Of a DNA stretch of 64,000 nt, positions 42,649 through 56,122 are shown piece after piece (within the stretch, counting starts at the first letter, position 1; every line of letters starts with the position of its first letter). The notes under the pieces were generated by a model. It worked only from the letters and a program-made list of their open reading frames with translations. It was not told where the DNA came from and ran no database searches. Source of the stretch: Mesostigma viride (Eukaryota; Streptophyta; Mesostigmatophyceae; Mesostigmatales; Mesostigmataceae); assembly GCA_009746045.1 (NCBI GenBank), contig RPFO01000167.1, forward strand, positions 2,704,648-2,768,647, given 5' to 3'. The translations under genes were made by a program, and so were the position numbers.

Positions 42649-45600
42649 ATGGCGCGTTCAGCGGTTTTATTGCTGGGAATATTCGCCTGCTTGGGAGCAA
42701 CCATCGCGGATGACTTTTCACATAGGGTGAGCTCCCGTTGTTAGCTATATCTAACATGAAATTCCTGTAATTTAGGGCATATAGCTTCGCAAGTTGTAAG
42801 TTAGACTAGGTATTGTTATACTTTGCTGGGCCGTTCGTTGTCGGCCTTATCGTGTCGCTCACCAAGACAAATATAGTATACTTGGAGATGCCCTGCCTGT
42901 AAGATATTCTTAGATTATTATCCGTAGGTGTCATGCACAGCTGATCATTGTGTTACGTACTGTGGAACGTGCGCTCGCCACGGCATTTCTGTAGAACTTG
43001 TGGGTTCCCTGGTGTTTCTTTGTTGTTTTTACCAGTTTGCTTACTCGGAATATCTTTAGTGTCCTTTGTTTGCGTCGGCTTCGTGCTATGTAAGGGTTAT
43101 CACGTTGCTATTTTCAGGTATCAGCAGCAAGTAGCCGTGCTCAACATTCGGCACCATTGATGCTTTCTGCATGTAGCTAGTTGTCCGGGTCCTGTTCACT
43201 CTTGTAAAGATAAATCTGAAAGAAGCGGAGGGGGGCGAATATCTGCTGTGTAGGGGGGCGTTCATTTGTTGTTGTTCTTTATCAGAAACTCTTGTCCCGC
43301 ATGAAGCATGTCTTTCTAATGTTATCATGACAGTTGTTAGTTCCATCCGAGCGTGTGTGGGTGGTACTTTTCACTGAAAACATAATATATTATATATGAG
43401 AGGGTATTTTAAAGGATATATTTCATATGATAACTGAAATATGCATGGTCACTGTTGTGTAAACCAGGTGTTCATGGAGGTGCCCTCGATGTTGACCGCC
43501 AGTATTAGTCACTGTAATGGTAATCTTTGTCACTGCCATGCCATGCGTGGCACCTTTCTGTTCAGACATGTAAGTGCTTAGAGACACCTGGAGTCTGTAA
43601 ACACGTAAGACTTCAAGTGTTTATGTCTTATAAGGCAAACCGATATATATTCCTTACTCAGCATACCTGTCGTAGTTGTACTTGTAGCACCGAAAAAATA
43701 ACATGAACTATTCTTTTTCGTAGTATGACATTCAATACTTAATATGCGCATGCACTTATTGTCTGCCTGCATGGTATACAGCTGTGCATGTTGGAAAAGC
43801 TTTGCAAGCGTCGTGATCTCTTATCAACAAAACTTATTAGCCGGAGCTTTTCTAACATGCACGACTCTTCGGTGGTTTGTTAAGCAACGTGTTCAAGATC
43901 CGCCTTAGTATAATCCATGCCCTACACAAAACATTACTCCACCTTAAATGCCACGGTAACGTATGTGTTGGGTTCATGCGCATGTGTGCTTGCGTGTATA
44001 TGATCCAAAGGTATTCTGGCATCTGTGCATGATCGCATGCCTCTTTTGAGCGTAGTGACTGCCTCATACTTTCAGTTTTTAAATGTTTCGTCAAAAACAG
44101 CCCATGGCCAGGTGTCTGTGCTCTCCACCGGATGCAAGTGCTACCCTCCCCTATACCCCCTTCTCCTCTCCTTATGCGCCTCCTCACTTATTGTCAACTC
44201 CCCATGTCCCCTCTCCCTCCCCCCCCCCCGCCCTTCCCCCCCCCCCCCCCCCCGCTACCTTTTTCCAAATTCGGCCCATTGCTTCCCCTGCCTTCCCACT
44301 AAAAATGCATCCTGAATCTCTTCCCTGACTTTTGTTCCTCTCCCCCCCCCCCCCTCCCCCCCCCCCCCGCGCTGCAGTACGAGATCGGCGACCAGGTGCA
44401 TTTGTGGGTCAACAAGGTGGGCCCGTACAACAACCCCCAAGAGACGTACAACTACTACACACTCCCCTTCTGCAAGCCTGGCAACGGCAAGGCCCACCAC
44501 AAGTGGGGGGGTCTCGGCGAGGTGCTGGAAGGCAACGAGCTGATCGACAGCAGTATAGAGTTCAAGTTCCGAAGTGAGTGGTTGGCCTTGGCTCACTTTC
44601 TTGACGTGATGAACAGGCCTTGGAGGCCACGGCATGGGTCCTTCGTTTACTAGTAATGTTGCTAAATGATGTGCTGTGCGTGCACACAACAATGATGGAC
44701 ACCATGAGCGGGTGTGCTTGAGGGCATGAGCCGTGAGGGCCCACACTACATGATAGTTGGTTTGTCTATCAATGTCCATACATATCGATATGATGACTTG
44801 GCATACATTCGCTGCTATGTCTAGATTGTCCGACCACCAGCGGAGATGCCCAAGTGCACGAACTGTGAGGACCCATGCTGGTTCATTTCTAATGGAAATG
44901 GAATACCTGCGTGCTGTGGATATGTATTTACCCATTCCTACGATGTTTGCTGCCAGTGGACGTGCCCAAGCGCACAATCTGTGAGGATCCACTGGACGAC
45001 AAGAAGGTTCGCAAGTTCCGCCGCGCGATCAAGAACCACTATTGGTACGAGCTGTTCATGGGTAAGTGGGGGACAGCGGTGCTTGACACAGCAGTGCCGA
45101 AGCATGTGTGTTGTCATCGCCTGCACCTTAGGTCCCCCTGCCTACCTGCCTAATATATCGTCGTCACCCTGCTCCTGTATCCATCAAGGGTCAGTACTGG
45201 TACGAGGCTGTTTATATGACAATAATCGAGTCATGAGCCTGAGGTCATGAGCATTTTTAAATCTCTCGTCGTCATTCTGCACCCACCCAAAACCACTGTC
45301 GCATGCATAAGTGGGCACCGCTGGTGTGCGACACAGAAATATTGACTGGGGGAACTATTGTGGCGGTAGAGGAAGTGTTGGCAGCTGAAGCCGTGGATTT
45401 GTGCCCATTTTCTGCATGGTTGTTGAATTTGTAGGTCGAGTTGTGGGAGAATATGTTGTTGTTGATGTCTGGCATCTTAGCCTTCGATGGCCACAGGTTT
45501 TTCACGATTATCATAGGGCGGCACTCAATAGCGGCTTTCTTTTTCCCTGTGGCAGCGTGTACCACTCACAATGGCCGAAGGTCACATGCGCATCCGGTGG

Positions 45601-54600: not shown

Positions 54601-56122
54601 AAGAAACAAAAAAGAGAAAGATGGTTACAGTGGATGGTTTAAAAGAGATGGTTGAAGAGAGATTGTTGGCACGTACTGAAGAAGAGCCCTAAACACGTGA
54701 AGGTGAGATTGGTGGGGGTGGGGGTGGGGGGCAGGAGGGAGCGGCGGGGGGTGGGGAGGGATAGGGCAGAGCCATAATGCAAGGGTCTCGTAATGTTGAT
54801 AACACTACTGCTTCGCAACCCACTCCCCACAAAGCAACTCAAATCTAGGGAATGAGCCAAGACTTGAAACGCATGTTGAAGAGCCCTTTTTTTTGCTCGT
54901 ACCAGCAGTTTTGGGATCACCAGCACATGATGCGTGATCCGCCCTGCCTTCAAGACAGGCCCGGATAATGCAGGCCTTCCCTCGGAGTGTCAGTTGATCC
55001 CTCGCACTGGCCTACCCTTGCACTGTACCGTTGATCCCACCAGGAAACAAGGTCTCGTCATTTATTTCCGAGATCGCTGTGCCTTTGGGTTCTTCTAACT
55101 GTCTGTCTGCTCTGCTGAGGCCAGCCCTAGCTGCACTGCATTTCAAATGGGGTTTACCAAGTGCACGTTGTGCCCGGTTAACCTGTCTGTGCCCACCCAA
55201 ACCACCGCCCTACCTGCATACTATCCACCACCTACTCCTACACACATGCCTTTTCCTGACCTCACCCTCTGGATTCTCCTGACCACGTAATCCCTTTTCC
55301 CTCTTGCTATGCCCCTCCACCTTGCTATGCACCACCACCTTGTTACGCCACAACCAACTTGCGATGCCCCCCCCCCGCGCCCCCTCCCCCCGCAGGTCTA
55401 CTACGTGTACGGTTTCATGCTGCTCGTGTTCCTGATCCTGATCATCGTCACCGTGTGCGTGACAATTGTCGGATCATACTTCCTGTTGAACGCGGAGAAC
55501 TACCACTGGCAGTGGACGAGCTTCTTCTCCGCCTTCTCCACGGCCGTCTACGTGTACCTCTACTCCATCTACTACTTCTTCATGAAGACCAAGATGTCGG
55601 GTTTCTTCCAGACGTGCTTCTATTTCGGGTACACGGCCATGTTCTGCCTCGGCCTCGGCATCATGTGCGGTGAGTAGGAGTAACCGTGAACATAGTTACC
55701 TGTAGATATTTGCATGCATGCTCATAAGGGATCAAGGCAACGTTCTGCATTGGCCTCGGCATCATGTGCATTGAGTGAGGGTCCATGCTGTGTGGTTGTC
55801 TATTTCTTTACATATGTGGTTGTCTATTTCTTTACATAACCGTAGATATGTCCAAAATGGCTCTCTTTCTCTCTCTCTCTCTCTCTCTCTCTCTCTCTCT
55901 CTCTCTCTCTCTCTCTCTCTCTCTCTCTCTCTCTCTCTCTCTCTCTCTCTCTCTCTCTCTCTCTCTCTCTCTCTCTCTCTCTCTCTCTCTCTCTCATTTT
56001 GGGCTCGCCACGCACTCGCCCCCAACTGCCCCTCCGTCATGGTTGCGCGTGCAGGTGCCATCGGGTACCTGGGCTCGGCGTCCTTCGTCCGACGCATCTA
56101 CAAGAACATTAAGTGTGACTGA
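42649..56122 (+). CDS. TM9SF3: Transmembrane 9 superfamily member (nonaspanin), TM9SF3 type
   Basis: Polytopic ER/Golgi-endosome membrane protein of the EMP70/TM9 family; relatives help sort membrane cargo and act in adhesion and Golgi structure. Exons: 42649-42726, 44378-44573, 44957-45061, 46345-46362, 47197-47345, 48352-48639, 49288-49454, 50156-50250, 51110-51240, 52708-52847, 54465-54567, 55396-55669, 56055-56122. Phases join throughout: 603 residues, against about 589 in human. Residues 1-20 are a signal peptide. The lumenal domain carries [40 protein letters not shown] and [13 protein letters not shown]. The first membrane span is near 235-258 ([15 protein letters not shown]). Family landmarks follow: [31 protein letters not shown]-like [47 protein letters not shown], and the KCD C-terminus (KxD, a COPI/Golgi-retention type signal). 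DDLPIWGFVGE and the lack of an extended ectodomain favour TM9SF3 over TM9SF2/4. Confidence 0.97.
46345..46362 (+). CDS. TM9SF3: 18-nt micro-exon of the TM9SF3 gene
   Basis: Exon 3 ends in G before GTAAGT at 45062 and exon 5 begins GC TTT GTG at 47197. The conserved family sequence DDLPIWG is missing between them. It is supplied exactly by 18 nt flanked by GCGCCCAG and GTGAGT, phase 1 on both sides. No other sequence in the 2.1-kb interval encodes it. Confidence 0.85.
46735..46860 (+). repeat. (ACACCC)n hexanucleotide array in TM9SF3 intron 4
   Basis: About 21 units, preceded by a C-run and (CT)n at 46706-46733. Pyrimidine-rich on the sense strand and about 340 bp before exon 5. Confidence 0.95.
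47944..48320 (+). repeat. (CT)n array of about 375 bp directly before TM9SF3 exon 6
   Basis: Almost pure CT with a few CCT interruptions, ending 31 nt before the acceptor CCTCCCAG at 48351. It occupies the polypyrimidine-tract position. RE/SL open frames across it are artefacts. Confidence 0.97.
49217..49256 (+). repeat. (TTA)n microsatellite before TM9SF3 exon 7
   Basis: TTA/TTG repeats ending about 30 nt upstream of the acceptor CCCACAG at 49287. Confidence 0.85.
53551..54354 (+). repeat. (CCCCTAT)/(CCCCCTAT) array of about 800 bp in TM9SF3 intron 10
   Basis: A mixture of 7-mers and 8-mers, about 105 units, ending 110 bp before exon 11. The irregular alternation of the two unit lengths shows local higher-order duplication. 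On the minus strand every unit has GGGG or GGGGG followed by ATA, a strong quadruplex former. It is interstitial and flanked by exons of one gene, so it is not a telomere. Confidence 0.97.
55861..55995 (+). repeat. (CT)n array before TM9SF3 exon 13
   Basis: About 67 CT units on the sense strand, ending 60 bp before the acceptor GTGCAG at 56054. Confidence 0.97.

Follow-up and report, generated by a model that had tools for sequence, protein, structure and literature searches.

Decayed copies of exon edges in the introns of TM9SF3 and other genes of Mesostigma viride

The window analysed here is a stretch of 64,000 nucleotides from the streptophyte alga Mesostigma viride (assembly GCA_009746045.1, contig RPFO01000167.1, positions 2,704,648 to 2,768,647 of the forward strand). 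It contains the gene TM9SF3 (42649–56122) and, at 29424–35809, a second gene that we take to be ALG5, encoding dolichyl-phosphate glucosyltransferase. The introns of TM9SF3 carry diverged copies of the edges of the adjoining exons, splice site included, which we term echoes. An earlier note on this DNA had described many of them and proposed that repeated tandem duplication across splice junctions lengthens introns. Here, we report that the echoes are present and non-random, describe their anatomy and their occurrence in other genes, and conclude that they most likely arose by short tandem duplications that crossed exon–intron boundaries in TM9SF3 and a number of other genes. All tests are confined to Mesostigma viride sequence, and the interpretation of the earlier note is, as a whole, partly supported.

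Echoes of exon edges in the TM9SF3 introns

Splicing of 42649–56122 by hand yields an open TM9SF3 frame of 603 amino acids in 13 plus-strand exons: exons 1–4 at 42649–42726, 44378–44573, 44957–45061 and 46344–46361; exons 5–8 at 47197–47345, 48352–48639, 49288–49454 and 50156–50250; and exons 9–13 at 51110–51240, 52708–52847, 54465–54567, 55396–55669 and 56055–56122. Along its entire length the product matches the JGI Mesvir1 protein Mv11860-RA at 100% identity, and the next algal matches (P0004–P0010) share 77–80% identity with it, so that the protein is unchanged by the duplications described below. In the Mesostigma viride genome the protein finds a single near-identical locus, the remaining matches being paralogs at 27–52% identity; this search did not return the echoes as separate rows. 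The genome comprises 441.8 Mb and 24,431 annotated genes, with a mean intron of 1142 bp and repeats making up 30.1% of intron space; the available text of the genome report makes no mention of exon copies in introns (PMC6947507).

Echoes of 5′ edges lie upstream of the parent edge and echoes of 3′ edges downstream of it, all on the plus strand; this is the side required of a viable tandem duplication. On the acceptor side, single echoes belong to exon 3 (44837–44881, offset from the parent edge 116 bp), exon 5 (47082–47122, offset 112, 36 of 41 positions identical), exon 6 (47831–47866, offset 502, falling to 125 once a CT array in between is discounted), exon 8 (50041–50071, offset 101) and exon 11 (53471–53512, offset 965, or 163 without a CCCCTAT array), and exon 9 is preceded by a continuous tandem array of two echoes (50821–51109, junctions at 50833 and 50986) that runs on into the exon itself. 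On the donor side, exon 3 has one echo of which the exon part alone is recognizable (45183–45215, offset 155, donor lost), exon 6 has two (48700–48750 and 48885–48912, offsets 77 and 267), exon 7 one (49516–49613, offset 113, donor GTACGA retained) and exon 8 two (50460–50517, offset 246, donor lost; 50609–50653, offset 395, GTGAGG retained). Exon 9 has two (51876–51942, offset 685, or 325 without a dispersed element; 51983–52049, offset 792), and exon 12 has one (55728–55780, offset 101, TT in place of the donor GT). The 3′ edge of exon 10 is followed by an array of four, at 52876–52942 (offset 72, exon part 29/30), 52958–53010 (offset 153), 53136–53192 (offset 334) and 53227–53260, the last being weak, with 20/30 matches to the exon and no donor.

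Echo families thus occur at 13 of the 24 edges of the gene (six 5′ and seven 3′) and in 10 of its 12 introns. All 17 places listed in the earlier note were recovered, that at 53222 being the weak fourth copy of exon 10. Three further edges with echoes had been overlooked, the 3′ edge of exon 3 and the 5′ edges of exons 6 and 8. Each echo lies inside an intron, and by our own sum of offsets the recognized arrays make up roughly 2.5 of the 11.7 kb of TM9SF3 intron, in keeping with the proposal that the duplications lengthened these introns.

The exon 9 echo contains a near-palindrome (50829–50860); it may be a quasi-palindrome whose arms became more alike when it was copied, an outcome expected of template switching. 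Very long simple repeats (CCCCTAT, CT and CACC) also occupy introns in the window, at 53553–54354, 47944–48320, 55861–55995 and 33281–33620, and add to intron length in their own right. The dispersed element of about 360 bp at 51411–51770, which separates exon 9 from the echoes of its 3′ edge, is 92% identical over 369 aligned columns to a copy on another contig (L049:4782–5150).

Statistics, anatomy and origin of the echoes

The earlier note had named shuffled introns and exon-interior pieces as the comparisons that could overturn its claim, and the claim survives both. Simple repeats were masked, and a probe of 30 exon and 20 intron bases from each edge was aligned to the intron that the edge adjoins. 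Of the 24 edges, 14 outscored all 100 dinucleotide shuffles, with scores of 14.5–40 where the shuffle maxima were 11.5–14.5; two of these results (14.5 and 15) were marginal, and no edge scored above 15 in an intron that it does not adjoin. Reverse-complemented probes beat the shuffles at only two of the 24 edges, the 5′ edge of exon 9 (18.5, a quasi-palindrome) and the 3′ edge of exon 6 (13). In a second test with 40-bp tiles and a match threshold of at least 16, 51 of 111 junction-straddling tiles matched, against none of 103 exon-interior tiles lying at least 40 bp from an edge (Fisher P = 3e-18, a value inflated by overlapping, non-independent tiles). Exon tiles 10–39 bp from an edge matched in 11 of 113 cases and deep-intron tiles in 151 of 1218, many of the latter being the echoes themselves; the inverted control gave 3/111 for straddling and 20/1218 for deep-intron tiles.

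Low-complexity stretches are common in the TM9SF3 introns and could in principle imitate such copies. Yet simple repeats were masked, the shuffles and most inverted controls were clean, most copies differ plainly from the parent edge, as duplicates created in assembly would not, and the protein model agrees with the independent annotation Mv11860-RA. The shuffles, the non-adjacent introns and the inverted control exclude chance, and we give next to no credence to chance similarity or assembly error as the source of the echoes.

Orientation and spacing bear on how the copies were made. TM9SF3 contains 30 direct repeat pairs (five within the CCCCTAT array) and five inverted ones, three of which are self-palindromes; the corresponding counts in ALG5 are five direct and three inverted, all of the inverted ones self-palindromes. 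For 17 edges of the two genes we entered the first offsets by hand, subtracting the CT array, the CCCCTAT array and the dispersed element (for two edges the entered values, 165 and 316, are close to but not the same as the computed ones, 163 and 325). Their median is 116 bp and 15 of the 17 fall within 72–165 bp, a range that replaces the units of 40–120 bp suggested earlier. Templated insertion during polymerase-theta end joining, by which nearby exon edges would have been copied into introns, accords with the shortness and locality of the copies and with the two edges at which inverted matches exceed the shuffles. It predicts, however, about equal numbers of inverted copies as well as exon-interior sources, whereas inverted matches stand at 2/24 against 14/24 direct ones, interior tiles at 0/103, and the spacing is tandem-like; we regard it as very improbable. 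The idea that entire short introns were duplicated together with the exon sequence on either side was rejected, as donor-side copies precede acceptor-side copies in introns 7 and 8.

The extent and decay of the copies describe the duplicated unit. Identity in both the exon part and the near intron exceeds random, the splice dinucleotide included: across 27 echoes (20 in TM9SF3 and seven in ALG5), mean identity is 0.72 over the 30 exon bases, 0.60 over intron positions 1–30 and 0.49 over positions 31–60, against 0.43 for random sequence. A frozen exon copy and drift in both intron copies would produce this order. Among the 17 echoes that match at 21/30 or better, mismatches by codon position number 48/170, 32/170 and 46/170; as there is no third-position excess, it is the echo that has changed and not the exon. 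No echo includes more than 53 bp of exon, save one far ALG5 copy (66 bp, score 10). Exon overhang at the 17 edges, entered by hand and averaged where copies differ, has a mean of 29 and a maximum of 52 bp, where uniform placement expects 57, and the probability that all overhangs would be at most 53 bp is about 1e-5. We read the short overhang as a viability filter or as an intron-centred mechanism.

Copies of one edge sometimes share an exon-side limit, at 33–34 bp in three exon 10 copies and at 47 bp in the two copies of the exon 9 3′ edge; because of this common limit, the later copies there look like amplification of one event. The copies of the exon 8 3′ edge differ in theirs (53 and 29 bp). 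Repeated local duplication, as first proposed, is supported, with this change for the copies of these exon 9 and exon 10 edges.

The splice dinucleotide, GT or AG, is intact in 22 of the 27 echoes, which bears out the earlier remark that donors are often kept. One reading is that selection maintains echoes as spare or decoy splice sites through which splicing is adjusted. Decoy exons, intronic exon-like pieces with splice sites, are reportedly regulatory in intron retention; nothing in the present data demonstrates a function of the echoes. From exon identity, 17–19 intact dinucleotides would be expected (P 0.04 to 0.19). The excess is marginal, though, the junction was positioned by best match and the parent splice site is itself constrained; moreover, the echoes otherwise decay, and 10 of the 24 TM9SF3 edges have no echo above the shuffles. 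Selection of this kind is, in our view, very improbable. Nor is there any sign that the splice site in use has shifted, as the earlier note had allowed.

Homology, a mainly direct orientation, locality, the correct side, tandem-like spacing and decay of the echo without codon bias agree with the earlier proposal of local tandem duplication over junctions with a decaying outer copy. In the mechanism that we favour, tandem duplications of roughly 70–165 bp would fall across splice junctions, the copy-making step perhaps being the routine repair of breaks or nicks. Where an acceptor is crossed, the intron end and exon start would be present twice; the inner copy would be spliced, leaving the protein unchanged, and the outer copy would become intron. 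A donor-crossing duplication would be the mirror image. Purifying selection would keep the inner copy while the outer one drifts, some copies would then be amplified in tandem, and each event would add one unit to the length of the intron. The duplications may be neutral, with a viability filter acting against those that carry more than about 55 bp of exon. On this reading, the TM9SF3 echoes lie in introns that pre-date them.

Other Mesostigma genes and the excess at junctions

The eight 3′ exons of ALG5, modelled by hand on the plus strand (29424–35809), are accompanied by echoes at 30460–30483, 31636–31662, 31957–32085 and 32972–33173, and one donor region is repeated in tandem with a period of 74 bp (31882–32085). 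Five of 14 ALG5 edges beat the shuffles, one of them marginally (the 3′ edge of exon 7, 13.5), and four are in families. In an UNC93-like gene downstream, whose Pfam matches fall below the curated cut-off, the figure is four of nine edges, three scoring 15–17.5 against maxima of 14.5–15. Leaving out the ALG5 exon 7 3′ edge and a marginal, distant UNC93-like edge (F 5′, 13 against 12.5, offset 1162), the strict counts are 4/14 for ALG5, 3/9 for the UNC93-like gene and 3/8 for a CCT chaperonin gene on contig C1546. The sample of genes is small, and TM9SF3, ALG5, the UNC93-like gene and a nicastrin-like gene all lie within about 75 kb.

In the UNC93-like gene three exon 3′ edges are repeatedly copied (L034:3724–3950, 8640–9220 and 9840–10000; L035:1–75), one of which has an apparent GC donor (GCAAGT). 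The 3′ edge of a nicastrin-like exon (L032:1866–2246; Pfam 22 bits, cut-off 25) is echoed 376 bp downstream (20.5); this edge was picked after the repeat had been noticed and stands outside the counts, and a structure-library search with the nicastrin-like piece returned nothing useful.

Several observations weigh against short junction-straddling duplications as a full account of the echoes. Foremost, none of 41 edges in TM9 paralogs (C1106, C1468, C1846, C1107 and one C1910 exon) reaches a score of 15, a cut-off set after the scores were known, and three barely beat 40 shuffles (12.5–14.5). The same pipeline, run on TM9SF3 as a positive control, found 9 of 14 edges with only 11 of the 14 placed correctly; edges with a probe or target too short or masked had been dropped (3/44 in the paralogs, 2/16 in the control, 2/10 in CCT). 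A looser tile test gave 4/44 in the paralogs at a threshold of at least 17, one of which, C1468:5055452–5055559, resembles a genuine short-unit echo. This heterogeneity remains despite similar base composition at third codon positions (GC3; 0.78–0.91 in the paralogs, 0.88 in TM9SF3), so that codon bias is unsupported as a cause of the paralogs' lack. Within TM9SF3, the 10 edges already mentioned have no echo beating the shuffles, two offsets (246 and 325) exceed what one unit allows, and the excess of exon over intron identity is reversed in seven of the 27 echoes and tied in three, mostly where exon parts are short. Last, a simulated uniform rate with the exon frozen still expects 35–41 families of intron-only duplications in TM9SF3 and ALG5, where 8–9 were counted (15 rows, 11 and 4, merged by hand).

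The contrast with the paralogs is strong for TM9SF3 (13/24 against 0/41, Fisher P = 1.5e-7) and for ALG5, CCT and UNC93 combined (10/31, P = 8e-5). The trait is neither limited to TM9SF3 nor universal; genome-wide universality is ruled out by the paralogs, given the positive control.

A lens effect accounts for some of the clustering at edges, in that a frozen exon keeps old duplications recognizable. Splice junctions of some genes may also be true hotspots, a transcription-, splicing- or chromatin-linked process favouring boundaries over intron interiors. The shortfall of intron-only families speaks for this, as do the restricted position of the duplicated units (a mean of about 29 bp of exon, the remainder intron) and the paralogs, which have almost no edge echoes at about the same density of intron-only duplication (16 of 23 families touch no matched exon in 34.7 unmasked kb, exons and flanks included, against about six, from 11 hand-merged rows, per 10.1 unmasked kb of TM9SF3 intron). 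Against it, young events (d at most 0.13, on a rough reading) are about equally frequent at edges (2–4 per roughly 4.3 kb) and in introns (7–8 per roughly 13 kb); the edge excess is confined to old events, where intron–intron pairs fade, and these target sizes are our own estimates. A pure lens effect, simulated with hand-entered identities, fails to explain the old edge echoes, and faster intron decay may do so: the intron side alone is alignable (at least 17) at only 4 of 17 edges, and the simulation may overstate intron survival. With the echoes' own intron-side decay, we estimate that 12–35 intron-only families are expected, a 1.5- to 4-fold excess. Because the observed families are fewer than expected even after this correction, edges may be favoured beyond the lens effect, a possibility that we nonetheless hold to be on the unlikely side. 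It is doubtful that, in a subset of genes, junctions are real hotspots for units of about 110 bp (a short exon overhang plus intron) that provide a main route of intron growth and leave datable fossils at most edges. That such duplications contribute to intron growth in some genes of Mesostigma viride is the best reading of the data.

Comparison by blastn (E at most 1e-6) within about 300 kb of sequence found no shared family at the echoes that would indicate introner elements; the TM9SF3 introns hold one dispersed element, in intron 9, the other matches being coding. Short dispersed repeats occur elsewhere in the ALG5 and paralog stretches, and introner-like introns in the paralogs were likewise rejected, no families being shared within the sequence compared. 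Ten-kb control stretches, by eye largely transposon-like or intron-poor, carry little information on exon edges, and some stretches in which no exon is known are likewise crowded with degenerate direct repeats. By eye, the dense intron-poor frames on both strands of L043–L046, unlike other stretches, resemble inserted large-virus DNA, and frames in L037–L038 a retrotransposon polyprotein (reverse transcriptase, integrase).

Relation to known duplication systems

To our knowledge, intron lengthening without transposons is poorly documented, because intronic duplications fade fast. The echoes show one route by which it can occur. A frozen exon edge beside its decaying copy forms a built-in dated reference, and genomes with such pairs would make it possible to measure how often small tandem duplications arise, how large they are and what becomes of them, together with the tolerance of duplicated splice sites.

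A Drosophila study reportedly found that tandem duplication of proto-splice sites gives rise to novel introns, Gao and Lynch (2009) are said to describe a related class of duplication, and Vaughn and Bennetzen (2014) are said to treat insertions in rice. As far as citations of the Drosophila work convey, duplicated coding sequence there becomes intron and the protein is kept, as in TM9SF3; the Drosophila unit, however, is exonic, with a proto-splice site, and creates a new intron, whereas the TM9SF3 unit spans a junction that is already in place.

Small tandem duplications from the repair of staggered breaks are an established class, with insertions under 100 bp (PMC8355091). Like the echoes they are short, local and head-to-tail, and are a plausible source of the units; the available text of that paper treats their formation in general and does not connect them with splice junctions or the growth of introns, and its sizes are somewhat below those of most echo units. 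Judged by titles and the opening lines of abstracts, the intron-gain literature contains no report of recurrent exon-edge copies across the introns of one gene, nor do the available parts of a review of intron evolution (PMC3488318) describe echoes. The earlier statement that no class of this kind has been described needs qualifying, as the available text on the potato RdRp gene reports one boundary-crossing tandem duplication that led to intron gain (PMC4974935). Boundary-crossing tandem duplication is thus already described, and its recurrence across one gene, with growth of introns, is the new part: in potato RdRp, as far as that text goes, one event made a new intron, whereas in TM9SF3 introns already present have grown, and the 13 edges involved, out of 24, include acceptors as well as donors.

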